DNA from: Pedobacter sp. Leaf250
GTDB taxonomy: Bacteria > Bacteroidota > Bacteroidia > Sphingobacteriales > Sphingobacteriaceae
Assembly: GCF_920984735.1 (NCBI RefSeq)
Contig: NZ_CAKLBU010000014.1
Coordinates: 1 to 64,000 of the forward strand
DNA: 64,000 nt
Reading direction: 5' to 3'
Shown: piece by piece, positions 2,661 through 20,093 of the stretch
How the letters are laid out: every line of letters begins with the position of its first letter
How positions within the stretch are numbered: position 1 is the stretch's first letter
Notes under the pieces: generated by a model
What the model saw: only the letters and a program-made list of their open reading frames with translations
Told to the model about the DNA's origin: nothing
The model's database searches: none
Translations under genes and position numbers: made by a program

Positions 2661-3413
2661 ATGATTAGAACGCTCATAATTGAAGACGAACCCGCCATCC
2701 GCAAAGAAATTGAATGGCTATTACAACAAGAAAATCAGTTTAATTTAATTGGCTACGCAACAAGCGTAGCCGAAAGTTTAGTGCTGATCAAAGCCACAAA
2801 TCCAGAATTAATTTTGATGGATATTCAGCTAACGGATGGCACAGCTTTCGATATACTGGATCAATTGGTAGAAATTCCATTCCGTATTATTTTTATCACC
2901 GCATACAATCATTTTGCAGTTAAAGCGATTAAATTCGGCGCTCTTGATTACCTCTTAAAACCTTTAGATGATGCGGAATTTAAATCTGCGTTAGCAAAAA
3001 TTGTTACAAATGATGAAAATAACATCACTCAGCAAAAACAGCAAATATCCATCCTAAAATCACAATCAGGCCATGGTGAAAGCAACTTGGAAAGCCGAAT
3101 TGTACTGCATACTTTAGAATTTTTGCAGGTTTTGCAACTCCGAGAAATTATTTACTGCCAAAGTGAAGGTGGTTATACCAATTTTTTCCTAACTGAAGGG
3201 CGAAGGATTATGATATCAAAACCACTTAAGTTTTATGATGAACTGTTACCAGAAAAGTGGTTTCTCCGTCCACATCAATCTTATTTGGTAAATGTTTTAT
3301 ATGTAGATAAATTTCTAAAATCTGGAACAATTGTATTGAAAGACAAGACTGAAATACCTGTTTCGGGCCGAAGAAAGGATTATATTTTACAACACATCAA
3401 CCATATCGATTAA
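2661..3413 (+). CDS. LytTR-family response regulator
   Basis: Two-component response regulator of 250 aa. The N-terminal receiver domain (about 1-120) has the acidic pair near E8/D9, phosphoacceptor D54 in LILMDIQL, and KPLDDAEF. The C-terminal LytTR DNA-binding domain (about 150-250) contains EIIYCQSEGGYTNF, RPHQSYLVN and VSGRRKDY. This domain class usually binds short direct repeats about 21-22 bp apart. No kinase gene is adjacent; the only LytS-type kinase in view is at 15166-17118. Repeat boxes of the right spacing lie upstream of several nearby genes. The gene starts 10 nt after the GxxExxY remnant and is followed after 24 nt by a metallo-beta-lactamase gene, so the two may be co-transcribed. 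Confidence 0.93.
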   Translation: MIRTLIIEDEPAIRKEIEWLLQQENQFNLIGYATSVAESLVLIKATNPELILMDIQLTDGTAFDILDQLVEIPFRIIFITAYNHFAVKAIKFGALDYLLKPLDDAEFKSALAKIVTNDENNITQQKQQISILKSQSGHGESNLESRIVLHTLEFLQVLQLREIIYCQSEGGYTNFFLTEGRRIMISKPLKFYDELLPEKWFLRPHQSYLVNVLYVDKFLKSGTIVLKDKTEIPVSGRRKDYILQHINHID

Positions 3414-4600: not shown

Positions 4601-4689
4601 ACGAATAATAAACAAATCCTTACAATACAGTTTTTTCGCTTACGAATAATAAAGTGTCAAAACAGGTACAAGATTATGGAGTATATTAA
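4601..4689 (+). promoter_or_regulatory. Tandem ACRAATAAT boxes plus -7 element (array a)
   Basis: ACGAATAATAA occurs at 4601 and again at 4642. A weaker ACAATACAG lies at 4622, giving spacings of 21 and 20 bp. TATATTAA at 4682, 40 bp after the start of the last strong box, fits a -7 element. The TPR gene starts 53 nt further on. I infer a binding site for the LytTR regulator encoded at 2661-3413. Confidence 0.6.
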
Positions 4690-4742
4690 GGCTCATCAAA
4701 AAGTTTAAGTATCTGAATGTTACTTAATTCAACCTGTATCTC

Positions 4743-6542
4743 ATGAGATTTAAATTAATTATTCCCTTAATTTTTATAGCTCTAATTGTTGCGAATTCGG
4801 CTGTTGCACAAAATAAAACCGTTTTTGAAAAAAATGCAGATTCATTAATAAAAATTGGTCAGCCTGAAAAAATAATTCCATATCTTGAAAAAGAATTAAA
4901 AAAAACACCTAAAAACGAATCGCTTTTGCGGTTATTGGGCTTTTATCATCTTCAAAATAATAACCTGGTAGAAGGTGAAAAGTTTTATCGAACAGCATTA
5001 TCGATTAACCCGAAATGTGCCCGGTGTTATTTAAATATTGGTCGCATACAGGCAACAAAAAATGAAGGAAATGAAGCTTTGGTGTCAATAAACAAAGCCA
5101 TTTCAATTGATGCCAAAGATGCTTTGTTGTTTTCTACAAGAGCAAAAATTAAAGCACAATTTGGTGATCAATTTGGTGCATTGGCCGATCATAATAGGGC
5201 CATTCAATTGGCACCAAATAACGCCGAATATTACACCGAACGTGGAGCTTATAATGCCAACAATAGTTATCATAGTTTAGCGCTAACAGATTTCAATAAA
5301 GCCATAAGCTTATCGCCCGAGGCCTACGATGCCTATTATTACAGAGGAGGTGTTTATAATAGTCAAAATAAAACTGAGGATGCTTTAAACGACATCAACA
5401 AAGCGATTCTTTTGAACAATAAACAGGCTTATTTTTACGATGGAAGAGCAGCAATTTATGCAAATTTAGGTCAATTTGATAAGGCTCTATCCGATTATTC
5501 ACAATCAATAAAACTAAATCCTAAAACTTATCCTGCTTATATCAATCGTGCTAAAGTATATTATGAGCTCGAAAATTTAGATGCTTCCTGCAGAGATTAC
5601 TCCATAGCAAAGCAGATATTAATTAATCAAAAAATAAATGATGCCGAGTTACTAAAAACCATTGATGAATCGGTCGCCGATTTCTGCGATGAAGCAAAAC
5701 CAAGCTACTATTACCAAAGAGGTATTGCGCATTATAACTTAAAACAATACGATAAAGCTTTATTGCAATATGCTAAAGGTTTGCAAAAATTTCCAAAAAA
5801 CGCAACGATGTTCTCATTTAAAGGTAATGCTTATCTGGCTTTAACAGACTATAAAAGTGCAGCAGAAAACTACAAAGCATCATTAGAAAATAAGGAAAAT
5901 TTACTTAGTGAAATTAAATCGAATCCACGTTTTACAGCGGCAACAACTGCAGAAATTAATGGCTATTACAATTCTTCCCTGGCTTCAATTTATTTAGGAC
6001 TGTCTGATTGCTACGCAAATGGTGAGCACTTCGAAATAGCACTTGAAACAATAAATACGGCAATTGCCCTAGCGCCAGACATCAACTCGTTTGGGAAAGA
6101 AACTTATTTTAATCGCCGTGGAAATATTTACTTAGCTACAGAAAAATATAACCTGGCGCTAAGCGATTTTAATAAAAGTATTCAACTAAAAAATGAATAT
6201 GCGCCTGCTTATGTAAACAGAGCGGTAGCTCGAGTTAGCCTCACCGAAAATATTAAGAAAACCACCTATCACATAAATACGGAAATAGCCAATCAACCTG
6301 CCGCCATCAATTGGGTAGTAAACAATAAATCAGCTATAAAAAAATCTGAGAGCAGTTTACTTTCTGCTTTAGCAGATTGCAATAAGGCAATTGAACTAGA
6401 TAAAAACTTCGCTTTTGCGTATTATGTTCGAGGATCAATAAAACAAATATTAAGTCAGCAGGATTTTTGTATTGATATACTTACAGCAAAAAAAATGGGC
6501 TTCGAAATTGATGAAACCATGTTGAAGAATTGCAACCAGTAA
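4743..6542 (+). CDS. Secreted tetratricopeptide-repeat protein
   Basis: A 599-aa protein with a Sec signal peptide ending near ANSAVAQ. It consists almost wholly of TPR units, for example in the segments ALADHNRAIQLAPNNAEYY, ALTDFNKAISLSPEAYDAYY and ALSDYSQSIKLNPKTYPAY. More repeats follow between about residues 320 and 590. TPR arrays mediate protein-protein contact; no catalytic domain is visible. The likely location is the periplasm. It begins 53 nt after the -7 element of array (a) and is followed after 10 nt by the next gene, so the two probably form an operon. The partner protein is unknown. Confidence 0.85.
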   Translation: MRFKLIIPLIFIALIVANSAVAQNKTVFEKNADSLIKIGQPEKIIPYLEKELKKTPKNESLLRLLGFYHLQNNNLVEGEKFYRTALSINPKCARCYLNIGRIQATKNEGNEALVSINKAISIDAKDALLFSTRAKIKAQFGDQFGALADHNRAIQLAPNNAEYYTERGAYNANNSYHSLALTDFNKAISLSPEAYDAYYYRGGVYNSQNKTEDALNDINKAILLNNKQAYFYDGRAAIYANLGQFDKALSDYSQSIKLNPKTYPAYINRAKVYYELENLDASCRDYSIAKQILINQKINDAELLKTIDESVADFCDEAKPSYYYQRGIAHYNLKQYDKALLQYAKGLQKFPKNATMFSFKGNAYLALTDYKSAAENYKASLENKENLLSEIKSNPRFTAATTAEINGYYNSSLASIYLGLSDCYANGEHFEIALETINTAIALAPDINSFGKETYFNRRGNIYLATEKYNLALSDFNKSIQLKNEYAPAYVNRAVARVSLTENIKKTTYHINTEIANQPAAINWVVNNKSAIKKSESSLLSALADCNKAIELDKNFAFAYYVRGSIKQILSQQDFCIDILTAKKMGFEIDETMLKNCNQ

Positions 6543-6552
6543 AAAACGAAAT

Positions 6553-7215
6553 ATGAGATATTTACTATTGTTTATTATTTTCCTTTCGTTTGAAACCAGT
6601 GCACAAGTGCTGCAAAATTTTGTTGAACCTGCTGGCAAAAGAAAGGTTTTTGAAGCAAAAGGCGACCTTGACAAAGATGGGGTTGATGAAATTGTAATGG
6701 CCTACAATACCGGAAAGCAGGTAGATCGGTTAGGTTATACCAGAGAACTATATATCTGCAAAGTAATTAATGGTAGTTTAAAACTTTGGAAACAAAATAC
6801 CTCAGTATTGTGGAATAGTGATGATTGTGGTTTTTGCACTGATAATGGTATTAATTTATCAATAAAAATAAAGAATAATACCATGATTATTGAGCAAACC
6901 TTTTGGCACAATACAAGACACACCAGTATCCACAAAAACATTTATCGCTACCAAAATAATGATTGGTTTCTAATTGGATCTACTTATAACGACGACTATA
7001 ATTGCGGCTACCATCATACTTACGACATTAATTTTTCAACCAAACAGGTGCATGTAAGTTACGATAACGAAGATTGTGAAGATTCTGTTCAATTGTATCC
7101 TGCTTCCGAAAAATCTTTTAAATATCCTTTTAAATCTATCCCAAAAATGGATGGATTTACACCGGGTAAAACTGAAATCAAAATCCCCAATTCCAAGCAG
7201 TTTTTTTATTATTAA
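6553..7215 (+). CDS. Secreted protein with one FG-GAP-like Ca-binding motif
   Basis: A 220-aa protein of unrecognised family with a signal peptide ending near FETSAQ. Residues about 36-50 read AKGDLDKDGVDEIVMAY, which resembles the Asp-rich calcium loop of FG-GAP/VCBS repeats; only one such unit is visible. Several cysteines (CGFC, NCGYHH, EDCED) suggest disulfides in a periplasmic or outer-surface setting. A similar GDFTGQGEKEMAF stretch occurs in the gene at 11449-12252, so the two may be distantly related. It follows the TPR gene by 10 nt. No function is assigned. Confidence 0.7.
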   Translation: MRYLLLFIIFLSFETSAQVLQNFVEPAGKRKVFEAKGDLDKDGVDEIVMAYNTGKQVDRLGYTRELYICKVINGSLKLWKQNTSVLWNSDDCGFCTDNGINLSIKIKNNTMIIEQTFWHNTRHTSIHKNIYRYQNNDWFLIGSTYNDDYNCGYHHTYDINFSTKQVHVSYDNEDCEDSVQLYPASEKSFKYPFKSIPKMDGFTPGKTEIKIPNSKQFFYY

Positions 7216-7228
7216 GGAGATCAAAGAA

Positions 7229-7318
7229 TCAGATAATTGTTTAGTTGCCACAAATAATTGTTAAATGCTAACGAATAATAATTGGTCAGAAATTGCTTAA
7301 ACGCTTTAGTTAGTTTAG
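7229..7318 (+). promoter_or_regulatory. Three boxes at exact 21-bp period plus -7 element (array b)
   Basis: TCAGATAAT (7229), ACAAATAAT (7250) and ACGAATAAT (7271) lie exactly 21 bp apart, and all three continue with A- or T-rich ends and a TTG. TAGTTTAG at 7311 is 40 bp after the start of the last box. The array begins 13 nt after the preceding stop codon and faces the gene at 7556. Confidence 0.65.
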
Positions 7319-7555
7319 TGTCGTTAAACAAAAACATCCTTAACCTATGGGGAGTAAAATTGCGAAAGCATAATTTATAGTTTTTGGTTCTAATTAACAG
7401 TTGTTTTGATTTTAGAAATGTAACGCCTCTTATTTGATGGCATAGGCGGTGTAAAATTTCAGTATCTGTATCCAGCATTTACTGTATTTTATGCCTCCTC
7501 ATCAAATCCTTTGACAAATTTCCTCATCTCGCTTTTGATATCAAATAATTAATAA
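7319..7555 (+). other. Long putative leader of the gene at 7556
   Basis: If transcription starts just after the -7 element of array (b), about 230 nt of leader precede the gene. CGCCT (7424-7428) can pair with AGGCG (7444-7448). An eight-codon frame starts at an ATG near 7349. I recognise no known riboswitch. Confidence 0.3.
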
Positions 7556-8180
7556 ATGAGAAAAATACGGTTTCTAATTTTCTTCTTATTCAGCATAACT
7601 ATTGCAAATGCACAAACAAGTTATGCTGATATTCAAAAAAAATGTAAAAGCGGCCCTTAAGAGCTATTCTTCAGAAAATCCGAATTATCCTATTTTGAAA
7701 AAACTGGTAACTGCCTTTGAAAAAGCAAAGAAATTAAAACCAGCTTATCTGGAGAAAGACAACTTGGGAATCGCCATTTTTCTTTCGAGCCAAAATCCTG
7801 AACTGGATATTTTTCCTGCTCGTTATACCTTTGAGCATGAACGGATTAATTTTTCAGCTTTGCGCAATAAAAACACAAAAAAGCCAAGTGATGATATGCG
7901 GGAATATGTTAAAACCTATATCGAAGATTTTAACCATTTAGGAAACACCACCATATTTAAAAAATTAATTTATAATGCACCCGAAACCGAAGGCACCCTT
8001 ACATCTAACACTACAGAACAGATTGTTAAAGAGCCTTATGCCACTACTTTTGTCCGTGGTGATGATACTTGGATGTATGCCATGAGCACTGGCAATCAGG
8101 GCATCATATTGTATGCTTTTAAAATGACTGTATCAGGCGAAAATTTAATGGATATAAGCGTAGATTCCAACCATAAATAG
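7556..8180 (+). pseudogene. Secreted protein interrupted by a frameshift in an A8 run
   Basis: An ATG at 7556 opens a good signal peptide (MRKIRFLIFFLFSITIANAQ), but that frame stops after CKSGP near 7660. The rest of the protein (NVKAALKSYSSENPNYPIL to DISVDSNHK) is in the next frame and stops at 8180. The frames meet in eight consecutive A at 7635-7642; seven would restore one frame of about 207 aa. The body alone could start at an ATG at 7602 but would lack the signal peptide. The family is not recognised. The break may be a pseudogene mutation, a phase-variable tract, ribosomal slippage or a sequence error. Array (b) lies upstream. Confidence 0.75.
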
Positions 8181-8351
8181 TAAGGTTTTAAAGCTATCTC
8201 TACCAAACCTGTGTTATTACCAATCCTCACCATTAATAAAATATGCATAAAAACTCTTCTCGAACAAAAAAAATGATGCGTATATTGATTTGCTAAAACT
8301 GTACAGTCAGGCTATACTGTATTAATAACCCCAAGTAATTCATCCCAAATA

Positions 8352-9389
8352 ATGAAAAAATTTTTTTTCTCCATTGTATTTCTAGTACATTTTTATCCAT
8401 GCTTTTCTCAAAAAAATATTAACGTAAAAATTGATGAGAGAATAGAAGCCATCACCATTTTTTACACGCTGGCTACCAGAGATACCTTAGATAGAAAACC
8501 AACTCCTTCCACATATTATCGAGATTTCAACAATCATTTCGAGAAATACAAAAATCACAATACACTAAATTGGTACAGAAATTTATCTTCATGGGATAGT
8601 TACGACTTATCCATCATTGGCTTATTTTTAACAGATAAATATCCGTTTTCATTAGCAATACCCTATTCTGACAGTCAGCTACGGAGTGTAGACATGACAA
8701 CTTTTTTAAGCAAGTTTAATGAATTTTATAAAGCATGTGATGTGGAAAGTTTTATAACAAGCCACAAAAATGAATATGATAGAATCACAGCATTTGCTAA
8801 GAAATCAATTGTGGAAAGTAATATTTTGAACGATGTTAAACTGTTTTACAATAAGCCTTCTGATGGGGAGATACTAATATTTGCAGACGTATTAAATAAT
8901 TTAGGCAATAATGCCATAGAAATCAAAGACGATAAATTTAAGGGTAAAAAGATTTTTAAGTTGGCGTATTTGCAGGATGAAAATATAACTCAAACCAATG
9001 ATACTGAAGTGAAGTTTGTACCCTTATCAAATGTGGTAATACACGAAATATCTCATCTATTTGTAAATGATTTTATACCTAAATATAAAGAAAGGTTAGC
9101 CAAAAAGAAAGACCTGTTTTTAATGACTTCTAAAAATGAAAAGTTAAATGAAAATAGATGGGAAAATGAATTGGATGAGCTGATTGTGAGGGTTTGCGTT
9201 TCAAAAATTTTAGGTAAAAAATATGGAAAAGAGCGAGAGTTAAAGGAAGTGGAAAATCAATCGAAACATTTTAAATATTTCGAGCAGTTAAACTCATATT
9301 TTGACAACTATATCCAAAATAGAAACAAGTATAAAAACATAACTTCATTCTATCCAGAACTAATAAATTTTATAGAATCTTTAAAATAG
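8352..9389 (+). CDS. Putative secreted zinc metallopeptidase, DUF4932-like
   Basis: A 345-aa protein with a signal peptide ending near FYPCFSQ. The motif VVIHEISHLFVN supplies HExxH at H231, E232 and H235. Glutamates in NELDELIVR (E273 and E276) could be the third zinc ligand of a gluzincin-type site. The overall pattern recalls DUF4932 proteins, which I cite from memory. It would act in the periplasm or outside the cell. The start gives a basic n-region and a hydrophobic core. It has its own upstream gap of about 170 nt without a clear ACRAATAAT array. Confidence 0.7.
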   Translation: MKKFFFSIVFLVHFYPCFSQKNINVKIDERIEAITIFYTLATRDTLDRKPTPSTYYRDFNNHFEKYKNHNTLNWYRNLSSWDSYDLSIIGLFLTDKYPFSLAIPYSDSQLRSVDMTTFLSKFNEFYKACDVESFITSHKNEYDRITAFAKKSIVESNILNDVKLFYNKPSDGEILIFADVLNNLGNNAIEIKDDKFKGKKIFKLAYLQDENITQTNDTEVKFVPLSNVVIHEISHLFVNDFIPKYKERLAKKKDLFLMTSKNEKLNENRWENELDELIVRVCVSKILGKKYGKERELKEVENQSKHFKYFEQLNSYFDNYIQNRNKYKNITSFYPELINFIESLK

Positions 9390-9440
9390 TGATATGCTTA
9401 TCAATTATCAACCTCATAAACCACACCAAAACAAATAATT

Positions 9441-9860
9441 ATGGCACTTATTAATCCGCACATTAACTTTAACGGCAATGCCGAAGAAGCATTCAATTTT
9501 TACAAAGCAGCATTTGGCGGCGAATTCTCAAATGTTGTACGCTTTAAAGATATGCAAAACAGCGAATTACCATTAGCAGAAAATGAAGTCAATAACATCA
9601 TGCACATTGCTTTACCCATTGGCGCTAATACATTAATGGGCAACGACATCCCCGAATTTATGGGCAAAGTAGATGAAAATGAGAACCGGTCGAAAATATC
9701 TGTTAGTGCAGAAAGTAAAGATGAGGCTGACAAATTATTTACTGCCCTTTCAGCTGGTGGTTCGGTCGAAATGCCAATCGACAATAGTCCGTGGGGTTCA
9801 TATTTTGGAATGTTCAGAGATAAATTCGGTATTGAATGGATGATTGAATATGCAGGCTAA
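9441..9860 (+). CDS. VOC-family PhnB-like protein
   Basis: A 139-aa protein of the glyoxalase/vicinal oxygen chelate superfamily, PhnB-like subgroup. It shows INPHINFNGNAEEAFNFYKA, GGEF, NNIMHIALPIG and the C-terminal WGSYFGMFRDKFGIEWMI. Members are small cytosolic dimers; many have no proven substrate. The length is typical. It is the only clearly ordinary cytosolic enzyme in this accessory block and is followed at once by its own terminator, which suggests a separate transcript. Confidence 0.9.
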   Translation: MALINPHINFNGNAEEAFNFYKAAFGGEFSNVVRFKDMQNSELPLAENEVNNIMHIALPIGANTLMGNDIPEFMGKVDENENRSKISVSAESKDEADKLFTALSAGGSVEMPIDNSPWGSYFGMFRDKFGIEWMIEYAG

Positions 9861-9893
9861 TTTGTTAATTTTTACAATCTAACCTCAAAATAT

Positions 9894-9927
9894 AATCCTC
9901 GCTTACACAATAGGCGAGGATTTTTTG
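9894..9927 (+). terminator. Terminator after VOC gene
   Basis: AATCCTCGC (9894-9902) pairs with GCGAGGATT (9914-9922) and runs into TTTT. The first box of array (c) begins within 2 nt of its end. Confidence 0.85.
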
Positions 9928-9928
9928 T

Positions 9929-10019
9929 ACAAATAATAATTCATATCCAACAAATAAAAATCGGGTTTAAACGAATAATAAAATGGGCAATCGTTTTAGC
10001 TTAAGTGATGTTATTTTTA
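9929..10019 (+). promoter_or_regulatory. Three boxes at exact 21-bp period plus -7 element (array c)
   Basis: ACAAATAATAAT (9929), ACAAATAAAAA (9950) and ACGAATAATAA (9971) are spaced exactly 21 bp. TATTTTTA at 10012 lies 41 bp after the start of the last box, and the next gene starts at 10040. This is the cleanest of the five arrays. Confidence 0.7.
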
Positions 10020-10039
10020 AATAAATAAAACTGATTTAT

Positions 10040-10540
10040 ATGATTGTATCATCACAAACGTACGCCATCATCCTCATTGCAATTGTTGTATTAATTAGTT
10101 TAAAACCACTGTATTCAAAGCTTGTAAAAAAGCAAGGTAAAAAAGATGATTGGATGTTTTTGCTGATCCTACTGATTTTACCAATCAATTGGTATACACC
10201 AACACTTATAACTGTTACAGATTGTAACCAATTTATAAAAGAGGTGATGTTGTTTCCAGCAAAAAGAGAAGGAATATCGATAAGCTACGGAAGAAAAAAT
10301 CACATTTTCAATCATTCTAAACAAACGCTCGGTTTGGAATATCTATACTATGGAAGCGATAAAAAAGAAGACGGTCAAAGAGATTTGGTTATTTTTCCCG
10401 GTAAAACTGCCATGGTGAATGAAGTGAAGATCGACTATGTTTTTGAAGCGCCGGCAAAAAGTGTTTCCACAAAATCAAGTGGTGCTACAAAAACCATGTT
10501 GTATTGCGAAAAAGATAGTGATGAACAATCAATCCAATAG
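10040..10540 (+). CDS. Small membrane protein of unknown function
   Basis: A 166-aa protein with two likely membrane segments near residues 8-24 and 39-56. The hydrophilic C-terminal part (about 60-166) carries two cysteines. No family is recognised. It is first in a likely three-gene operon (gaps of 33 and 29 nt to the next two genes) downstream of array (c), so it is probably under the same control as the other genes of this block. Confidence 0.65.
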   Translation: MIVSSQTYAIILIAIVVLISLKPLYSKLVKKQGKKDDWMFLLILLILPINWYTPTLITVTDCNQFIKEVMLFPAKREGISISYGRKNHIFNHSKQTLGLEYLYYGSDKKEDGQRDLVIFPGKTAMVNEVKIDYVFEAPAKSVSTKSSGATKTMLYCEKDSDEQSIQ

Positions 10541-10573
10541 TACCGGATTTATAATCTATACAAACAAAGCCCT

Positions 10574-11419
10574 ATGAAAACCATAAATTATATCTGCGTT
10601 ATTTCGCTAATTGCCCTCGTTTCTTGCAATACGAAAGACAAACAACCAGAAACGCTCCAGGCCAAAGGAGGCTTCGATCTCGAAAAAGTAACCTTTGCTG
10701 AAAATATCCCTAAGCTTTACGGCAACAACGTTTTATTAAGCGATGGCATGAGATATGATAGTACTGAAAATGGAAAACTTACAGACACGCTGCTAAAGTA
10801 TAAAATCAGCAATTCGATGCTGGGTGCTTTAAAAATTAATGTACCACAAAAGGATTTCGGTTATTTATATCAAAGTCATACATCAGATAGTTTGGCCAAA
10901 TTCAATGGTACATATTTTAGCAACTTGAATATATTAACCGATAAAAACAAAAAAGCTGTAGCCTTTTATGCGGAAGGTGAAATTTATGATCTAAAAGCGA
11001 AAAAAGCTTTCCTTGCTAAAATGAAAGAAAAATACGGTGATCCAAAATATTCAATTTTCATTTCTCATGAGTTTAACCAATGCTCTTATGAATGGGTTTT
11101 AAAAGATCGTACCATTCAACTGGAAACTTCAAAAGGATTTAGCGCCACTTTTAGTAGTGATAGCGATGCAAAATCAGGAGAATACCTCCGCTTCGATTTA
11201 CTTATTATTGCTAACGATAAAAAAGAGCAGGTGTATAATGCCCATGTTTACGAGTTCGGCGATAAAGTAATGTACGATGGCAAATACAGAAGCTTGAAAG
11301 ATTTACAACTAGATAAAAAATCAACCTTTAAAGATGTTTTTCTGTTAAACTCTACCGATAAAAAATACTTAGATGATCCAACGGACCAATATGATATTAG
11401 TCGGGAAGAAACTGAATAA
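10574..11419 (+). CDS. Lipoprotein of unknown function
   Basis: A 281-aa protein with a lipobox IALVSC (Cys about residue 19), so it is probably lipid-anchored in the inner or outer membrane. The body is hydrophilic and lysine-rich, with no motif I recognise. It sits between two membrane-protein genes in the putative operon 10040-12252 and is likely to be co-expressed with them. Confidence 0.7.
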   Translation: MKTINYICVISLIALVSCNTKDKQPETLQAKGGFDLEKVTFAENIPKLYGNNVLLSDGMRYDSTENGKLTDTLLKYKISNSMLGALKINVPQKDFGYLYQSHTSDSLAKFNGTYFSNLNILTDKNKKAVAFYAEGEIYDLKAKKAFLAKMKEKYGDPKYSIFISHEFNQCSYEWVLKDRTIQLETSKGFSATFSSDSDAKSGEYLRFDLLIIANDKKEQVYNAHVYEFGDKVMYDGKYRSLKDLQLDKKSTFKDVFLLNSTDKKYLDDPTDQYDISREETE

Positions 11420-11448
11420 ACGCATTTTTATTTTAAAATCTTTGTACC

Positions 11449-12252
11449 ATGGAAAATTCTAATTTCAATATCGAACCAGTCCAAAATACAGAAATTATTC
11501 CTCAACCAAAACGTAAAAACAGAGCTAAAACCGTTATTTGGATAATTGTAGCCATTATAGTTATAGCAGGAGCCACAGGTTTTGCTTATTTATATGGTGG
11601 CTACAAAATGCGCCAGGACTATTATAATAGCGGCGATAGTACCAGCTATCCTGCTGATAGTGTTTTTGTTGATGGTTGGGCAAGCCCCGAGGATTTTGCC
11701 ACCTGGAAAGGAGCAACGTTTACTATTCCACAATATAATGATATACCAATCGCCTTTCAAAGGGCTATTGTTAAAATTTTTATGGATAATAATTACTTCA
11801 GTAAGGATAATAACGATTTATACTTTTTTACCAAGATCAAAGATCGGGCTTATCGTGTAATTGCTTACGGAGATTTTACAGGTCAGGGTGAAAAAGAAAT
11901 GGCCTTTTTGCTCGAAAAATCGGATTATGCCAGTAGCGCCATTTATATTATCCCTCAAAAAGGCAATATATTATACTGGAAAGAATTGAGTGGCGAATTA
12001 CCAACCATAAAAAGCTTTAAAAAAGGTGCACTCATTTTTATGGATAAGATGGAATTAACACCTGCACCTAGTGATGGGATTATTAAGCAAACAAAAAATT
12101 CTAAATATGTATTGATTTATAATCGCCAAACCAAAACCTTTGATCAATACTATCAATATACAAATGAAGATATAAAAAGCGCAAACGAGGAAACAGATGA
12201 AGGTGAAGAAGAAGCAGATGAACCCGATTCAGCAACCGTTGCAGAACTGTAA
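11449..12252 (+). CDS. Single-pass membrane protein with FG-GAP-like motif
   Basis: A 267-aa protein with a basic, proline-rich N-terminus of about 27 residues, one membrane segment (about 28-49), an extracytoplasmic domain, and a very acidic tail (EETDEGEEEADEPD). The stretch AYGDFTGQGEKEMAFLLE resembles one FG-GAP/EF-hand-like loop and the motif in the product of 6553-7215. No function is assigned. It is the last gene of the operon behind array (c); a minus-strand gene converges 5 nt after it. Confidence 0.65.
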   Translation: MENSNFNIEPVQNTEIIPQPKRKNRAKTVIWIIVAIIVIAGATGFAYLYGGYKMRQDYYNSGDSTSYPADSVFVDGWASPEDFATWKGATFTIPQYNDIPIAFQRAIVKIFMDNNYFSKDNNDLYFFTKIKDRAYRVIAYGDFTGQGEKEMAFLLEKSDYASSAIYIIPQKGNILYWKELSGELPTIKSFKKGALIFMDKMELTPAPSDGIIKQTKNSKYVLIYNRQTKTFDQYYQYTNEDIKSANEETDEGEEEADEPDSATVAEL

Positions 12253-12257
12253 AAGTG

Positions 12258-12503
12258 TTATAAATTTCGTGATTTAAGTTCTTGTTTCATTTTTTTGATA
12301 TTGCCCAGGTTTAAAATTACTATTGGCAAAAGTGCAATTGGAATAACAGTTAAGGGCGTAAATCCTTTTTTAAAGGTTAAAAACATACTTAGCCCAAATA
12401 AAAGCATCAACATTACAATAAGCGTGTAAGTAGCAGCTTTAGCTAATTTTTCATTTTTTTGCAACTGATCGTTACTCATTTCGGCAAATTTGTTTTCACT
12501 CAT
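12258..12503 (-). CDS. Small two-TM protein
   Basis: An 81-aa protein with a charged N-terminus (MSENKFAEMSNDQLQKNEK) and two predicted membrane helices at about 22-43 and 50-67, ending in basic residues. The family is not recognised. It is convergent with the preceding operon and has only 5 nt of spacing. On its own strand no clear TAnnTTTG box is close to the start. Confidence 0.6.
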   Translation of the reverse strand: MSENKFAEMSNDQLQKNEKLAKAATYTLIVMLMLLFGLSMFLTFKKGFTPLTVIPIALLPIVILNLGNIKKMKQELKSRNL

Positions 12504-12607
12504 GTTAAGGATGGGTTATTATTCTTAAATACTGGAATATTTAAATCTTCTACTGCTAAAATAGCAGATACAAGCATCTTTAACAAACTTATTTCATTAT
12601 TGTAAAA

Positions 12608-12698
12608 ACGAATTATAGATGAAATTCAGCGAATTATAAACCATATCCAACGGTTGTCAATTGGGTAATAATCAATTCTTTGATAATGATTAATATAG
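12608..12698 (+). promoter_or_regulatory. ACGAATTAT boxes at 21-bp period plus -7 element (array e)
   Basis: ACGAATTAT (12608) and GCGAATTAT (12629) are 21 bp apart. A weak third unit, ACGGTTGTC, lies at 12650. TAATATAG at 12691 is 41 bp after that weak unit. The variant ACGAATTAT also occurs as the last box of the array at 17134-17186. It precedes the gene at 12723. Confidence 0.5.
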
Positions 12699-12722
12699 TA
12701 TAACAAAAGGCTTTCAAATATT

Positions 12723-12971
12723 TTGAACATGCCCTTTAAGTTTAATTTAAACCTAAATATTTTCAAAATGACAATTACTTACATGATGTTGGCATTTACA
12801 ACAATTTACCTAACGGCAACTTACTTTTACTACCGCCATACGGTTAAGAAAGGCACAGAATTTAGATATAAACCAATTTTCTTATTAATAATTGGGCTTC
12901 TGTTCTTGTTATCGCTTTATGGCAGTGTTACCAACCAACCATTTAACACCATAGTTCCATTTATTGGTTAG
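12723..12971 (+). CDS. Small two-TM protein
   Basis: An 82-aa protein. An internal ATG at 12768 would give the shorter form MTITYMMLAFTTIYL of 67 aa; both starts lie after the predicted promoter, so the choice is open. Two membrane helices are likely (about 18-37 and 53-70), separated by a basic loop YRHTVKKGTEFRYK. The family is not recognised. It is the first gene behind array (e) and is followed after 42 nt by a hydrolase gene. Confidence 0.6.
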   Translation: MNMPFKFNLNLNIFKMTITYMMLAFTTIYLTATYFYYRHTVKKGTEFRYKPIFLLIIGLLFLLSLYGSVTNQPFNTIVPFIG

Positions 12972-13013
12972 GGCTGAAAATTTTTATTTAAACCTTACAT
13001 CCTCGCTATACCA

Positions 13014-14009
13014 TTGAAAAGAACAAAAGCTATATATATTGCCATTGCTACCATACTCATTTGGTACATTTTTATTTGGTGTAAATTTTATTTTTTCAGT
13101 AAGGTTTATACACAAGATAAAATGGATAAAGAGTTCGCTGCATTGAAAATGAATGCGCCACTTATTGATTCAATTAACATTAGAGGCTATAACATTAAAT
13201 ACATTAGCAATAAAAAAAATTATACCGAAGAAGGCGATCAATTTGGAAAGAAAAAACCGTATTTGGTATTGCTACATAACAGCGATAAAAACGCAGCTTG
13301 TTTTCTAAATTATTTTAAAAATAAAACGCTGGCGAATAAGTTTCACATCATCGCTATTGATAGAATTGGTTTTGGGAATACAACTTTCAAAAAGCCTGAG
13401 CAAATGAATTCTCTTTTCAAGCAAGAAGAAAAAGAATTTGGAAATATTGCCGATTATGCTTCTGGGATAGCTGTAAAAGAGGCTTTGAATGCTGAAGGAC
13501 AACACATGGAGGAAGTTAGAATTGTAGCTAACGGGAGTGGTGGCATGGCTGGCTTACAGGCTTATTTATATGAGAATATTTCATTCTCAAAACTCTTTTT
13601 ATTTAACCCTGATTTAAGCAGTAGATTTTTCTTGAGTAAGTTTTTTAGTAAGATAATCGTAAGCCCGATAATGGTTTGGAGTTTTCCAAGAGCATTTGTA
13701 AGCAAACACCACGATCTACTTTTGGCTGATGAATATAAGGACGAGAAATTTGAAAAGTTGATTAAAAATGTTCAATTTTCTGAGAATAGAGAAGCGACAG
13801 ATAATGGCTACATGTATCCAAAGGGGTTAAAATCTGTTTTTTTCTTAGGCTTGAGTAAAAACGAAAAAGAACGAATAACCAAAATTTCTGGAAAAAAAAG
13901 CTTTGTTTTTCAAGCCAATGATGTTAATATCTACACAGGGCCAGAAGATGTTCTGAAAACGATATTGGCTAATGATGTTTACACATTACAGTTTAACAGA
14001 ATAAAATGA
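13014..14009 (+). CDS. Membrane-anchored alpha/beta-hydrolase fold protein
   Basis: A 331-aa protein with a TTG start, which gives a good signal anchor (MKRTKAIYIAIATILIWY). The next in-frame ATG is 36 codons later and would remove the anchor. The fold is suggested by YLVLLHNSDKNAACF, FHIIAIDRIGFGNT and the nucleophile-elbow-like VANGSGGMAGL. That elbow has Asn where the usual GxSxG has its first Gly. The catalytic His is not obvious, so activity is uncertain. Its stop overlaps the ATG of the next lipoprotein gene by 4 nt (ATGA), implying translational coupling. Confidence 0.65.
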   Translation: MKRTKAIYIAIATILIWYIFIWCKFYFFSKVYTQDKMDKEFAALKMNAPLIDSINIRGYNIKYISNKKNYTEEGDQFGKKKPYLVLLHNSDKNAACFLNYFKNKTLANKFHIIAIDRIGFGNTTFKKPEQMNSLFKQEEKEFGNIADYASGIAVKEALNAEGQHMEEVRIVANGSGGMAGLQAYLYENISFSKLFLFNPDLSSRFFLSKFFSKIIVSPIMVWSFPRAFVSKHHDLLLADEYKDEKFEKLIKNVQFSENREATDNGYMYPKGLKSVFFLGLSKNEKERITKISGKKSFVFQANDVNIYTGPEDVLKTILANDVYTLQFNRIK

Positions 14010-14944
14010 CGAAGATTTTCACCATCGCAATTGTATTGCTTATAAGCTTACAATCTTGTAAATCGCAAGTTACCGATCATGTTGAGTTGCTCGAAAATTT
14101 GAAGTACGATCAGGATAAAGAGATGTACCAGGCGGCATTAACAACCTTATACCCTGCAGAAGTTACCATTAATGATTATCCGATTGGAAGGGGTTTGGCT
14201 TATTTCGGGCACGAAATCTACTACATTGCAGATCTCGGGCTACAAAAAAAAGGGCGCCAAACGGCTACAGTTACGATAGATTTAAAGAATTTTAAACCTA
14301 CTGAAAGCGATAAACCCATCCTCTTTTTGGCTGTTTATTACAGCGGCGATGTTTCCATGCCCTCAATTGATGACAAAGAAGATGTATTGGTGCATTATGT
14401 GTTGCTTGAAAAAGATATAACCGAACAGGATATTAAAAAAGGTTCAATTACCAAAACCTTTACTTTTGAAGCGAAGGAAGTTCGTACAAATTTGGATAGT
14501 TGGAAAAATTCTAGAAAATTAACCGTTAATGACGCCTTGTTTAATCAGTTGTATAGCGAATACGAAAAGCTACAAACAGATTTAAATGCTTCGGATAAAG
14601 GTAATGCCATTGAAAAAATGAAAGTTGCCGAGTTTGAAACTGCCCAGCTTAGAAATGCAAAAAAAGAATGGATTGTAGATGAACGCAAAGCTTTATTTTC
14701 TAATCATTGGAAGTTGCTGCCAAAAGATAGCTGTAAAATAAAAATTTACGGTGACGGCAAGATTGCCACATTGGTTAAAAAAGATGATTCGATCATTTCA
14801 GTATCAGCGGTATCTTCAAATCCAAAATCTAAGAACGAAAGAACTACACAGTTTTTGAACCTGTATTTCCATATCCCAAATAATAAAAGCGATTTGGAAT
14901 TGACCCGATTTGATGGTTATGCCATTACTAAATTTGGAAAGTAA
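14006..14944 (+). CDS. Lipoprotein of unknown function
   Basis: A 312-aa protein with a lipobox SLQSC near residue 17, so it is probably membrane-anchored. The rest is hydrophilic. No domain is recognised. It is coupled to the alpha/beta-hydrolase gene through a 4-nt overlap, which suggests that the two products act together or at equal level. It is the last gene of the unit behind array (e); a 221-nt gap then separates it from the kinase gene. Confidence 0.7.
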   Translation: MTKIFTIAIVLLISLQSCKSQVTDHVELLENLKYDQDKEMYQAALTTLYPAEVTINDYPIGRGLAYFGHEIYYIADLGLQKKGRQTATVTIDLKNFKPTESDKPILFLAVYYSGDVSMPSIDDKEDVLVHYVLLEKDITEQDIKKGSITKTFTFEAKEVRTNLDSWKNSRKLTVNDALFNQLYSEYEKLQTDLNASDKGNAIEKMKVAEFETAQLRNAKKEWIVDERKALFSNHWKLLPKDSCKIKIYGDGKIATLVKKDDSIISVSAVSSNPKSKNERTTQFLNLYFHIPNNKSDLELTRFDGYAITKFGK

Positions 14945-15165
14945 ATTAAAAATTCATTTAAGGTCTTTCATTCTTAACTCACCCGTATTTAAATCTCGAA
15001 CACTAATTAGTGATGAAGAAATTAGAGTTGCAAATGATTATGCCAATTACCTAACACAACGGTTTTTATTCGGATGCTAAAAAATGTTTAGGGGTAAGCC
15101 TATAAGTCTTTAAAAAAATGTAACATTATGTTCTAAAGTCAAATGAACGTTTTAGCTACTATTCA

Positions 15166-17118
15166 ATGAAATTACGCCGTCTATATTTTTGCCTCCTTGC
15201 CGCATCAGTTTTTTATGCATGCAAACAAGATCAATCTAGAAGCAAAAATGAGCAGTTGCTTAAACACAAAACTTCAATTACGGCCCTTTCGGCTAAACAA
15301 ACCACAGCATCAAACGCCGATTCTATTTTGCAAGCCTGGAAGCGCTTCAACGCAGATCCAATCGTATTGGCCGACACCGACTTAAATACAAAAACGAAGT
15401 ACAATTTAGGTAAAATGTTTGCCCGAAAAAATCCTGATAGTTCTAAAATGTTTTTACAACAAGCTTTAGAACTTGTTGAAGGCAGTAATCGCTATTTGGA
15501 AATTAAAGCTAATCTGTATAATGGCATGGGCAATTTGGCCAATGCAGAACCTTTAGAACATCAGGCCAATTATTATTATAACAAGGCGGCTATGATTGTG
15601 CTGTCAGATTCTACTTTGACTTTGAAACCCATGGCCAAGGCAATTATTTTATTGGCCGCCGCACAAAGTAATAAAAGTTTGCAGCAGTATAGTCTAGCCT
15701 TAAAAATGAATTTGGCAACTTTAAAATTAATGCCCCAATTGCCACCAAATGTTACCAACCAGCAACGGGTTTTAACACAATTGATCTCATTAATTTATAC
15801 TGCGGATTTTCCTAAGAATGATATAGAAAACTATCTGAAGAAATTAGAAAAACTGCAAGCTACCTATCCCGATGACTTTAACCCCAGATTTTTATATGAT
15901 AGCAAACTCCTTTATTTCGATAAGGCCAATAATATAGATTCTGTTTTAAAATATTCTTTACTCAATGCAGCAATCGATGAACAATTTTATGGAGAAAGGC
16001 CAACGGAGCCTACCGCAGCAGGTAATATTTACACTACTTACACCAACATTGTAGCCAATTACGTTAAGGCAAAAAATTATACTGGGGCAAAGCTGTTTCT
16101 AAAAAAAGCCAATGATATTTTTAAGCAAAGTGGTAATCTCTTAGAATATGAGGATTTAATTAGAGGTGGAGAAGCAAGTTCGAGTTATTATGCTGCAATT
16201 GGTGAGAAAGACCAGGCGCTTCAAACTGCACAAGATGTAATTGCTTTACAAAAAGAAAATTTTGAAATCGAAAACACACAGGCTGTTGCCGAAATGGGAG
16301 CACTATATCAAATCCAGGCGAAAGACAATTCCATTGAGCGATTAAATGAAGACATCAAAATAAACACCTTAAAGTTAGAACGCAATAAGCTATCATTAGT
16401 TATTACGGCCCTCATCATTTTAATCCTGCTTATTGTTATTTGCTTGTTTTACAGCATTTATAAACAACGCAAGTTAAAACAGGAAAAAGAAAATGTTCAG
16501 TTGCAACAGCAATTGTTGAGAACACAAATGGAGCCTCATTTTATTTTTAACACGCTATCTGCGTTGCAAAGTTTTATTCGGTTGGATGAAAAAGATGAGG
16601 CTATTAAATACCTGAATCAATTTAGCAGACTGTTAAGAAGTAGTTTAGAGTTGAGCAGAGAAAAATTAGTACCGCTAAGCCAGGAAATAGAAACGCTTGA
16701 AAACTATTTGAGTTTACAGCAAATGCGCTATAACAATATTTTCAATTTTGAGATCAAAACTCCATTTAATGAAGATCTGGAAATGCTTATGATTCCACCG
16801 ATGTTAATACAACCTTTTGTAGAAAATTCGATTTTACATGGCATTAATTTAAATGATAAGGATGGTTTTGTTAATGTAGATTTTACGATTACTAATCAAA
16901 ATTTAAAGGTTACCATTGCCGATAGTGGCAAAATCGCTGGCGAAAAGAAACCACAAAACCATCAATCGCTTTCAGGCATCATCAGTAAAGAAAGATTACA
17001 GCTTTTAGGTAAAGAGCGGAATCAGGATGCCGGAATTACGCAAAACAAAACCACAAATGGCGGTACAATTGTAACTCTTAGCATTCCTTTCGCCCTGAAC
17101 GAATCAATGGGTGGCTGA
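15166..17118 (+). CDS. LytS-type sensor histidine kinase with TPR sensor
   Basis: A 650-aa protein. An N-terminal signal sequence with a weak lipobox (VFYAC) is followed by a helical TPR-like sensor region (about 40-390), one membrane helix (about 409-432), a coiled linker, and the His_kinase/HATPase pair typical of LytTR systems. H458 in TQMEPHFIFNTL is the phosphoacceptor. N554 in PFVENSILHGI marks the N-box, and NGGTIVTLSIPF closes the ATPase domain. The sensor part would be periplasmic. The LytTR regulator at 2661-3413 is the only candidate partner in view, 11.8 kb away. The promoter region lacks ACRAATAAT boxes. Confidence 0.93.
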   Translation: MKLRRLYFCLLAASVFYACKQDQSRSKNEQLLKHKTSITALSAKQTTASNADSILQAWKRFNADPIVLADTDLNTKTKYNLGKMFARKNPDSSKMFLQQALELVEGSNRYLEIKANLYNGMGNLANAEPLEHQANYYYNKAAMIVLSDSTLTLKPMAKAIILLAAAQSNKSLQQYSLALKMNLATLKLMPQLPPNVTNQQRVLTQLISLIYTADFPKNDIENYLKKLEKLQATYPDDFNPRFLYDSKLLYFDKANNIDSVLKYSLLNAAIDEQFYGERPTEPTAAGNIYTTYTNIVANYVKAKNYTGAKLFLKKANDIFKQSGNLLEYEDLIRGGEASSSYYAAIGEKDQALQTAQDVIALQKENFEIENTQAVAEMGALYQIQAKDNSIERLNEDIKINTLKLERNKLSLVITALIILILLIVICLFYSIYKQRKLKQEKENVQLQQQLLRTQMEPHFIFNTLSALQSFIRLDEKDEAIKYLNQFSRLLRSSLELSREKLVPLSQEIETLENYLSLQQMRYNNIFNFEIKTPFNEDLEMLMIPPMLIQPFVENSILHGINLNDKDGFVNVDFTITNQNLKVTIADSGKIAGEKKPQNHQSLSGIISKERLQLLGKERNQDAGITQNKTTNGGTIVTLSIPFALNESMGG

Positions 17119-17133
17119 TGTTAAACTGCATTG

Positions 17134-17224
17134 ATAAATAATTTCGTTTCTAGTGCGAATAATAATTCAAAGTCTACGAATTATAATCGCTTCAGGATTT
17201 ATAGAATATTCCTGTCTATATTTA
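17134..17224 (+). promoter_or_regulatory. Three boxes at exact 21-bp period plus -7 element (array d)
   Basis: ATAAATAAT (17134), GCGAATAAT (17155) and ACGAATTAT (17176) are spaced exactly 21 bp. TATATTTA at 17217 lies 41 bp after the start of the last box. The array starts 15 nt after the kinase stop codon. The next gene begins at 17410, leaving a leader of about 180 nt in which nothing else is clear. Confidence 0.65.
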
Positions 17225-17409: not shown

Positions 17410-18156
17410 ATGGGCAAATTATTTATTACGCTTGCATTCATATTTATTTCGGCAACGGCATGGCCGCAAGTAACCAATGCCTTAAATAGTTCTTTGAAAA
17501 ATAAGGTATTGGAGCAATTGGGACTAAAACCAGAAGAAATTAATGAGGAATTATATGTTGAAAAAGTTTTGCCATATGCCAAAACGCAAACCGCAATCGT
17601 AATTTGCAAAAACAGAAAAAGTGAGCTTGATAAAAATGACGACAGCTCTTTTGAACTGGATGCATATATTATTATTGCCAATAATATAACTGGCAAAATT
17701 TTGTATAAATATTTCGAAGAAAGCGAATGGATCTCTGATGCAATTATGCTTACAGGTATTACCATCGACACAGGTATTTTCACCTTAAATAATGAAACCC
17801 GGGCTTTTGGTGTTCAAACAAGTTATGCAAATGGCAGTCAGCCAAACCCGCACCACCATACTGATCTTTCCTTATTCGTTCAAAGTAATAAAACGCTTAA
17901 AAAGGTGCTTAATAATTACACCACACAAACGTTTGGTGGCGAATGGGATACGCGTTGCGCTGGCGAATTCGAAGATGTAACTTCCACAATAATCATCGAT
18001 AGGCGCAGTAAATTCAAAAACTTTAACAGTTTAATTATCAAGGATAAAATCACAAAAATCAGAAATACCTTCGTGAATGAAGATTGCGTTGAGAAGAAAA
18101 CTTTTACCCACCGCACCAATAAATTGAAATATAATGGTATGGAATATACTAAATAA
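17410..18156 (+). CDS. Secreted protein of unknown function
   Basis: A 248-aa protein with a signal peptide ending near SATAWPQ. The body has no domain I recognise. It includes a histidine cluster (NPHHHTDLSLF) and a few cysteines in the C-terminal half. It is the first gene behind array (d) and is followed after 25 nt by another exported protein gene, so an operon 17410-18997 is likely. Confidence 0.65.
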   Translation: MGKLFITLAFIFISATAWPQVTNALNSSLKNKVLEQLGLKPEEINEELYVEKVLPYAKTQTAIVICKNRKSELDKNDDSSFELDAYIIIANNITGKILYKYFEESEWISDAIMLTGITIDTGIFTLNNETRAFGVQTSYANGSQPNPHHHTDLSLFVQSNKTLKKVLNNYTTQTFGGEWDTRCAGEFEDVTSTIIIDRRSKFKNFNSLIIKDKITKIRNTFVNEDCVEKKTFTHRTNKLKYNGMEYTK

Positions 18157-18181
18157 TCAATAGGTAAAATTAAAGCTGAAA

Positions 18182-18997
18182 ATGAAACGTTATTTTAAAG
18201 GATGCCTGATTGTAATTGGTGTATTGCTCTTAATACTGGCCGTTTTTGTTGGTTTATTTTGGTGGTCGATGGAGAACAATAAAGCGAATGCCGAGAGTGA
18301 TGCTGAAGAATTATCAAAAGCATGCGATACGGTAAAATACATTACCGAAAATCCATATTTAACGTTTATAAAATTTGTCCCAAAAGAGCTTAAAACTTTA
18401 CGGTTTCAAATTTTAAGAGATGGTAAAATCAGCAATGATACTTTGGTTAAAACATCATTTAACAAAAATTCGGATTTGAGAATAAATTTCCCTTACAAGA
18501 AGTTTTTAAAAACGGATACCATTATATTAACTACCCAAAACCAACTAAAATATTATGTTTCCGGCTATGGCCATTATGCCTATTTACATTACGGAATGTT
18601 TGGTTATGTAGGCTCAAGTGATTGCCGCTTTTCAGAAAACTGCATCATTAACAATCAGGTATCAAGTGGAATAATCGACAAATTTAGTGGTTGGATAAAT
18701 CCAGAAAAATCAAAGCATATCCGTACAATTCCACCTAGCGGTGAAGAATATCAAGCCTTTGTTACCAAGTGTAAAATCAATTTAAAAGAAGCCGAGCAAA
18801 TTTTTATAAACCAAAGAAAAAACGAGCACCTTTATTCTGTGCTTTCTTACGGAATTGAAGTTGGACCAAAGGAAAGCTTTTATGTTTTCGGAGAAGAACG
18901 GGAATCTAACAGAGATCATATCGATATTGTTAAAATTAATACGCGGACAGGTAAGTTCATCAGGTATACCAATTATCCATTCGATAGCGATAGGTAA
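18182..18997 (+). CDS. Single-pass membrane protein of unknown function
   Basis: A 271-aa protein with an N-terminal membrane anchor (about 6-29, YFKGCLIVIGVLLLILAVF) and a largely hydrophilic outer domain with three or four cysteines. No family is recognised. It follows the preceding secreted-protein gene by 25 nt and is probably in the same transcript. Confidence 0.65.
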   Translation: MKRYFKGCLIVIGVLLLILAVFVGLFWWSMENNKANAESDAEELSKACDTVKYITENPYLTFIKFVPKELKTLRFQILRDGKISNDTLVKTSFNKNSDLRINFPYKKFLKTDTIILTTQNQLKYYVSGYGHYAYLHYGMFGYVGSSDCRFSENCIINNQVSSGIIDKFSGWINPEKSKHIRTIPPSGEEYQAFVTKCKINLKEAEQIFINQRKNEHLYSVLSYGIEVGPKESFYVFGEERESNRDHIDIVKINTRTGKFIRYTNYPFDSDR

Positions 18998-19113
18998 GCT
19001 CTTAATATAATTTGAATAATTTAACTGCTTACAAACGAGTGATTAGTTAAGGATTAAATTGTAATCAGCGCTTAAAGGTTTAAAGCAATTTATCTTCCAG
19101 GGATATTAAAATT

Positions 19114-19428
19114 ATGAAGAATAAAATTTATCAATATGTAATTATCCGGCTGTTGATATTAACATTTGGACTTCTAATAATTTATCGTTTCGCCATTTAT
19201 TTGCTGCCCAAAAACATTCGGGAAGATCAATTTTCTTTCATTGGCGAAATAAATTTAATAGTGAATTTAAGCCTTGCCTTCTACATTGCTTTTAGTGGTT
19301 TTATTTATTTCGAATACTTAAAATTTAAAATAAATCGCCAGGCCGAATTAAAGAAAATGGCAGTGGTTACTCTAGTTATTAATTTAGTAATGGTACTTAT
19401 CTTACTTTTTTTATCCTTTAATTTATAA
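19114..19428 (+). CDS. Small three-TM protein
   Basis: A 104-aa protein with three predicted membrane segments (about 10-30, 45-67 and 82-102). The family is not recognised. Its stop codon overlaps the start of the next gene by one base (TAATG), so translation of the two is probably coupled. Confidence 0.6.
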   Translation: MKNKIYQYVIIRLLILTFGLLIIYRFAIYLLPKNIREDQFSFIGEINLIVNLSLAFYIAFSGFIYFEYLKFKINRQAELKKMAVVTLVINLVMVLILLFLSFNL

Positions 19429-20093
19429 TGAAGTCTCTCAAAATTAAATCCATTATTAAATGGTTATTCCTGGCAGCTGTAGTCGGTTTTGCTGTTGTTT
19501 TCATTACCAGTTATTCTATAAAATTCAAAACCGAAAATTATATTTATTCTGATATTAAGAATGTTCCTAAAACTAAGGTTGCTATTATTTTTGGCGCTGG
19601 CATTAGAAATAATAAACCCAGCAAATACTTAAAAGATAGGTTAGATGCAGGTATTTCATTGTTAAAAAACAATAAAGTTGATAAGCTTTTACTTTCTGGC
19701 GATAACGGCAGAGATGAATATGATGAGCTAACCGTAATGAAATTGTACTGTTATGAAAATGGAGTAGATACCACTAAAATTTATATCGATTATGCTGGTT
19801 TTGATAGCTATTCCACTATGTATCGGGCAAAGCAAATTTTTAAGGTCGATACAGCAATCCTGGTTACTCAAAAATATCATTTGAATCGGTGTATTTATAT
19901 TGGAAATAAACTTGGGATAAAATGTTATGGTTATAATGCCAACACAGGAATTTATAAAGGTTATAAATATTATGCTTTCAGAGAAAATTTCTCTTTAACA
20001 AAATCAACTTTAGATATACTGCGACATAGAAAACCAAAATACCTGGGAAATGCGGTTGATATTAATGGACCATCTAATTATACGAAAGAGTAA
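19428..20093 (+). CDS. SanA/YdcF-type DUF218 membrane protein
   Basis: A 221-aa protein with an N-terminal membrane helix (about 12-30) and a DUF218 domain. Motifs are AIIFGAGIRNNKPSKYLKDR, KLLLSGDNG, DSYSTMYRAKQIF and ILVTQKYHLNRCIYIG. Relatives include SanA and ElyC, which affect envelope integrity and drug exclusion in enterobacteria. The biochemical activity is not settled. It is coupled by a TAATG junction to the small membrane protein before it and closes the accessory block. Confidence 0.85.
   Translation: MKSLKIKSIIKWLFLAAVVGFAVVFITSYSIKFKTENYIYSDIKNVPKTKVAIIFGAGIRNNKPSKYLKDRLDAGISLLKNNKVDKLLLSGDNGRDEYDELTVMKLYCYENGVDTTKIYIDYAGFDSYSTMYRAKQIFKVDTAILVTQKYHLNRCIYIGNKLGIKCYGYNANTGIYKGYKYYAFRENFSLTKSTLDILRHRKPKYLGNAVDINGPSNYTKE

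Follow-up and report, generated by a model that had tools for sequence, protein, structure and literature searches.

Within the first 64,000 nucleotides of contig NZ_CAKLBU010000014.1 (C14) of Pedobacter sp. Leaf250, referred to here as the window, lies a block that encodes a LytTR response regulator (2661–3413) and a LytS-type histidine kinase (15166–17118), a pairing already claimed in the original prediction for this DNA and confirmed by the Pfam domains of both proteins. The regulator combines a receiver with a C-terminal LytTR domain, both over the cut-off, and thereby falls under the definition of a LytTR response regulator. The same block contains five promoter arrays (A1 to A5; Table 1), in which a 9-bp box of about RCGAATWAT recurs with a period of 21 bp. 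All five were found in the window sequence at the positions that had been proposed for them, and the exact 21-bp triplets claimed for three of the arrays were recovered in A2, A3 and A5; in A1 the middle box is weak and the last step is 20 bp (4622 to 4642). A LytTR reading of these arrays is well supported by the sequence comparisons described below, and they are very probably the operators of the regulator at 2661–3413, which would switch on operons for envelope proteins throughout the genome.

The layout of the arrays, with two or three 9-bp boxes separated by 12-bp spacers, fits published LytTR sites, which are direct repeats of 9–11 nt with spacers of 11–13 nt (PMC4847170, PMC6193735), as the original prediction had suggested. 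It had also claimed that the -7 elements follow at a set distance, and all five do start 40–41 bp beyond the first letter of the last box, the element of A4 being atypical: TAATATAG is the sole one of the five that is neither TAnnTT nor similar to TATATTAA. Across array-led promoters the consensus of the -7 element is TAnnTT, then mostly T, then A or G, with the offset fixed. Promoters of the primary sigma factor of Bacteroidota also have a TTG element at -33; no conserved -33 element was found in the 41 arrays with TAnnTT at 40/41, where the columns from -26 to -2, counted back from the -7 element, all stayed at or below 0.3 bit. The array consensus is one letter short of TAnnTTTG, the primary-sigma -7 consensus that PMC9723704 gives for Bacteroidota and places at -12 to -5. 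If the -7 element of the arrays occupies these same positions, the last box would span roughly positions -52 to -44. In multiple alignments of orthologous promoters, the spacers of A1–A4 have diverged while the boxes and -7 elements are conserved, those of A1–A3 in two close relatives and those of A4 in four related genomes.

The regularity of this arrangement was assessed with a box matrix trained on 25 boxes of the own genome. The cleanest test set was made up of 16 loci from other genomes, selected through the regulator protein alone without use of the motif. These loci held 18 pairs scoring at least 17 at a spacing of 21 bp and 20 at 42 bp (the outer boxes of triplets), compared with 0–3 at any of the remaining spacings between 12 and 41; at a threshold of 14, the numbers were 33, 23 and 0–6 elsewhere. 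TAnnTT stood at offset 40 (11 arrays) or 41 (one array) in 12 of their 17 arrays, and at other offsets from 15 to 79 in at most one array each; with the looser threshold of 14, it was at 40/41 in 17 of 27. A larger set of non-own arrays had it there in 32 of 44 cases, but many of these had been fetched by a profile containing the -7 element, and the regulator-picked loci were therefore relied on instead. A count of 31 box pairs obtained with the matrix is partly circular, as it includes the own-genome training arrays. In 167 kb of strand, made up of 25–64 kb of the window and 12 loci of paralogous LytTR genes, no pair at spacing 20–22 scored 15 or more; within the window, the box matrix scan thus upheld for 25–64 kb the earlier statement that the window has no other array of this quality.

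The original prediction had regarded the regulon as local, and this part of it did not stand. Profile R1, a sequence-only profile built from ten own arrays, gave 11 matches at E<=1e-3 in the own genome; ten of the places belong to training arrays, whole or in part, and the other, at C4:123830, was a new array outside the training set (35.6 bits). The next match, at C3:74978, was borderline (E 0.003, 20.3 bits), with three boxes at exactly 21 bp. At both sites TAnnTT stands at offset 40, and the encoded product has an N-terminus of the export type. With A4 included, the own genome has about 13 arrays on five contigs (five on C14, four on C16, two on C12, one on C4 and one on C3). Arrays as good as those of the window are therefore present outside it, and the regulon is spread out: eight sites, one of them borderline, lie on the four other contigs.

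The arrays accompany the regulator across genomes. Among loci with a regulator orthologue and a downstream kinase, 18 of the 24 outside the own genome carry an array where the kinase gene stops (19 of 25 when the window is counted, in which A5 begins 16 bp past the stop codon). Here a pair start from -41 to +131 of the stop was scored with a matrix that had own-genome boxes only as training, and p<=0.05 against 1000 dinucleotide shuffles was required; about one of the 24 would be expected by chance, and the rows are non-independent, since G073 and G025, as well as several Flavobacterium, are close kin. The loci that passed include seven of the eight from Flavobacterium, of which those of Flavobacterium sp. 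LHD-85 and F. anhuiense are named and the others were assigned to the genus by grouping. In the genus Pedobacter, 17 of 99 genomes had a regulator orthologue over 200 bits (a cut set after viewing the list) and 12 of the 99 had R1 matches at E<=1e-3. At least three profile matches were found in 6 of the 17 genomes with an orthologue versus 1 of the 82 without (Fisher p 7e-5), or in 5 of 16 versus 1 of 82 when the own genome was left out (p 3e-4). The one genome without an orthologue that reached three is G021 (78% complete), where a kinase of 75% identity is followed by an array. A family survey, in which 151 genomes were searched, added one genome outside the genus with a single match at E<=1e-4. 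The letters of the box, moreover, differ between regulator subfamilies. G stands at position 8 in 19 of 20 boxes of G050, which has another subfamily of the regulator, versus 3 of 22 in the own genome; G062 and G054 have G there in 2 of 14 and 3 of 12 boxes.

In relatives, the kinase orthologue is mostly encoded next to the regulator: of the 25 loci with a kinase match downstream, 21 have the two genes no more than 300 bp apart. In the window the two genes are 11.8 kb apart, and in the window, G073 and G025 they are separated by 11.8–14 kb, with array-led genes in between. The two proteins also differ in ancestry. In the regulator tree, the window belongs to a ten-row clade with G062 and G035 (support 96/92), whereas in the kinase tree it stands with G050 and G274 (support 100/99), two genomes whose regulators share only about 50% identity with that of the window. 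Forced agreement of the trees was rejected both ways (p-AU 3.8e-66 and 2.9e-67), for groups that were named after viewing the trees and with an incomplete G274 kinase row. The incongruence indicates that the two proteins of the window come from two separate ancestral pairs. A search of the own genome for second candidates gave one kinase match at E<=1e-50 and no second close regulator.

Taken together, a mechanism can be proposed in which the kinase, in response to a presumed signal, would phosphorylate the regulator, which would bind two or three in-phase boxes, 21 bp being two helical turns. With the last box at the estimated -52 to -44, the bound regulator could contact RNA polymerase at a promoter with a -7 element and without a conserved -33 element. 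The roughly 13 arrays would then direct the synthesis of lipoproteins, periplasmic proteins and inner-membrane proteins. The N-terminus of the kinase itself reads like a lipoprotein signal, and no TPR repeats were found in it in the Pfam scan.

Several observations weigh against this assignment or against the arrays themselves. In front of the regulator gene no array was found, and the kinase of the window is not the ancestral partner of the regulator. A3 matches the profile in two partial pieces, and A4 scores 11.4 bits (E 1.9). No significant array was found behind the kinase in L074, L075, L079, L139 and L292, and L287 gave p 0.12. Ten of the 17 genomes with an orthologue had no profile match at E<=1e-3, part of which may be explained by drift of the box, and matches occurred in five of the 82 genomes without one. 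A loose two-box pattern with up to two mismatches had 50 matches in the genome versus 37 for its reversed control; it was uninformative, and the profile and matrix were used in its place.

The arrays might instead be operators of another LytTR protein or of an unrelated transcription factor, with the gene at 2661 a mere neighbour. LytTR genes over the Pfam cut-off number 14 in the own genome, and any of them might be the binder; only the regulator at 2661–3413 lies on C14, the cut-off scan found none on C16, C12 and C4 despite their arrays, and C3 has a different LytTR gene about 14.5 kb from its array. In four of the five genomes that have matches without an orthologue, moreover, the match is single. 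Such a binder is nevertheless improbable, given that in two genera the array sits right where the kinase gene of the same pair ends, that arrays co-occur with the regulator and vary in their letters with its subfamily, and that the best scores at the 12 paralogous LytTR loci are 2.6–14.6, with one above 11. Repression by the same regulator, with the boxes acting as a brake on otherwise active promoters, is judged marginally less probable still. Position alone leaves the sign of control unproved; however, the boxes lie wholly upstream of the core promoter, which lacks a conserved -33 element, for which reason the promoters are read as activator-dependent, and characterised sites of the same layout in Streptococcus mutans activate (PMC6193735). 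That the arrays arose by chance or from the composition of AT-rich intergenic sequence is hardly credible. The window has 36% G+C and loose patterns match often, but the spacing and the -7 offset hold in the regulator-picked loci, where equal pair numbers at other spacings were not seen, and the position is kept across genera and the footprints in conserved promoters.

Table 1. Features of the window that belong to, or lie between, the arrays and the two regulatory genes.
Feature	Position	Strand	Details
LytTR response regulator, 250 aa, proposed box binder	2661..3413	+	PF00072 9.1e-18, PF04397 5.4e-16
Array A1	4601..4650	+	boxes 4601-4609, weak 4622-4630, 4642-4650; profile 33.0 bits
-7 of A1	4682..4689	+	TATATTAA, offset 40
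A1 target, TPR protein	4743..6542	+	TPR families (Pfam); export signal read by eye
Second gene behind A1, exported protein	6553..7215	+	no Pfam family; 8-member family among 128 regulon proteins
Array A2	7229..7279	+	boxes 7229, 7250, 7271; profile 43.8 bits
-7 of A2	7311..7318	+	TAGTTTAG, offset 40
A2 target, exported protein that reads in two frames	7557..8180	+	open reading frames in window
DUF4932 protein behind A2 target; membership of A2 transcript putative	8352..9389	+	PF16286 7.3e-30
Array A3	9929..9979	+	boxes 9929, 9950, 9971
-7 of A3	10012..10019	+	TATTTTTA, offset 41
A3 operon, three genes	10040..12252	+	10040-10540, 10574-11419, 11449-12252; no Pfam families
Array A4	12608..12658	+	boxes 12608, 12629, degenerate third 12650
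-7-like element of A4	12691..12698	+	TAATATAG, 41 from degenerate box; not TAnnTT
A4 target, 67-aa membrane protein	12768..12971	+	array-led also in G073, G025, G062, G021
Two genes between A4 and kinase	13014..14944	+	13014-14009, 14006-14944; no Pfam family
LytS-type histidine kinase, 650 aa	15166..17118	+	PF06580 4.2e-21
Array A5	17134..17184	+	boxes 17134, 17155, 17176; profile 43.4 bits
-7 of A5	17217..17224	+	TATATTTA, offset 41
A5 operon, four genes, last DUF218 / SanA-like	17410..20093	+	open reading frames, family matches

The original prediction had described the products behind the arrays as secreted or membrane proteins, and this is strongly supported: by a hydropathy rule, 131 of 138 array-led genes of the own and related genomes were envelope-like versus 16 of 37 background open reading frames (ORFs), in a crude test in which a few genes were counted twice and the length cut-offs were 60 and 100 aa. 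The families listed for the 40 proteins of the own genome include TPR, DUF4932, VanW, TonB_C, BamB-like propellers, DUF218/SanA and MORN, and those listed for the 88 proteins of relatives include MORN, WG repeats, AhpC-TSA, zinc ribbon, VanW and alpha-2-macroglobulin-like. Clustering of these 128 regulon proteins left 65 singletons, and the first readable genes at the array behind the kinase formed 17 groups in 19 loci, unrelated between genomes. The promoter is constant and the cargo is exchanged between genomes.

Some of these products deserve separate mention. The A2 target, split in the window, is represented by intact ORFs of 208 and 214 aa in two relatives. In G054, an array leads a protein of 1865 aa (L301:5191-10785), and its length makes it the most likely source of the bacterial alpha-2-macroglobulin domains matched by a single protein among the 88. 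Two proteins of the cluster on C12 exceed the cut-off of 35 bits for the XAC2610-related family NF047539 (61.3 and 62.9 bits); the pair sits in L033:12316-16009. XAC2610 is an immunity protein that resembles lysozyme inhibitors (PMC10933484). An XAC2610-like fold was also considered for the window protein at 6553–7215 but found no support: the protein has no NF047539 match and no solved relative by sequence, its model has a pLDDT of 60, and in Foldseek the best hits were unrelated propellers (E 0.018), with XAC2610 (4qtq) at rank 49 (E 0.24). Upstream of the regulator, at 2264–2651, the sequence suggests to the eye a broken small gene, perhaps akin to GxxExxY proteins.

An envelope-response system is plausible, and that the regulon serves the protection or defence of the envelope is a guess. 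The chances are about even that it is a general envelope-stress or surface-remodelling programme, without a special role against competitors. The mixed cargo (TPR, MORN, TonB_C, beta-propeller, DUF218/SanA, zinc ribbon, thioredoxin-like and many unknowns) speaks for such a programme, whereas the fast turnover of the cargo and its few XAC2610-related and alpha-2-macroglobulin-like members fit defence somewhat better. A more far-reaching and tentative idea, on balance unlikely, is that the regulon is the counterpart, in Bacteroidota, of a coordinated innate defence, in which one two-component system with interchangeable sensors would govern, from a plug-in promoter (box array plus -7 element) that keeps its place behind the kinase, a rotating set of exported protectors against the enzymes and toxins of rivals, and in which the kinase of the window lineage would have been replaced by one from another pair. 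Against a defence function stand the many cargo proteins, a majority, without an informative family, and a search for anti-phage families, in which none of the 88 regulon proteins of relatives (the 40 of the own genome being excluded) matched PADLOC at E<=1e-3.

Activation by a LytTR regulator from direct repeats is a mechanism of a known kind. In Escherichia coli, YpdA/YpdB has few targets, compared with the 13 or so arrays here, and YpdA is a multi-pass membrane kinase, unlike the kinase of the window with its lipoprotein-like start. The two systems share a LytS-type kinase, a LytTR regulator and direct repeats upstream of the promoter (PMC4847170), with two boxes in YpdA/YpdB and two or three in the present arrays. 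HdrR/BrsR and PlnC/PlnD, which control bacteriocin regulons in Gram-positive bacteria, likewise place several operons under one LytTR regulator through 9-bp repeats with 12-bp spacers (PMC6193735, PMC2714321), but they belong to a different phylum and use a different promoter type, and no bacteriocin family is among the families listed for the present cargo, the top 25 of each scan. The arc clusters under Gac/Rsm in Pseudomonas aeruginosa, scattered and independent protection clusters under one sensing pathway (PMC8926400), have another type of regulator; the likeness is one of working only, a defence role here being a guess. Nor is this a LytTR Regulatory System, in which a regulator is combined with a membrane inhibitor, since a receiver domain and a histidine kinase are present instead.

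A link to Flavobacterium johnsoniae was considered as well, where five of five coevolved lines had one mutation each in the adjacent LytTR/kinase pair FJOH_RS09515/FJOH_RS09520 (PMC10197871, Table 2). The F. anhuiense orthologue of the present regulator, L246, has T at nucleotide 44 and A at nucleotide 46, letters that misfit the mutations C44T and G46A given there; the other LytTR genes L236, L237, L231 and L232 do fit, and the link was therefore rejected as unsupported.

In the open-licence literature, no LytTR operator or regulon was found for Bacteroidota, and relative to that literature the regulon, its layout and the partner swap appear to be new. Bacteroidota have many LytTR regulators, as the 14 genes of the own genome illustrate, and the arrays offer a specific operator with a fixed promoter geometry that is tied to one regulator family in two genera. 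The mixed ancestry of the regulator and the kinase would represent a natural partner swap in a two-component system, useful for the study of specificity residues. Finally, dozens of genes of unknown function would be gathered into one regulon, which provides a first handle on their role.

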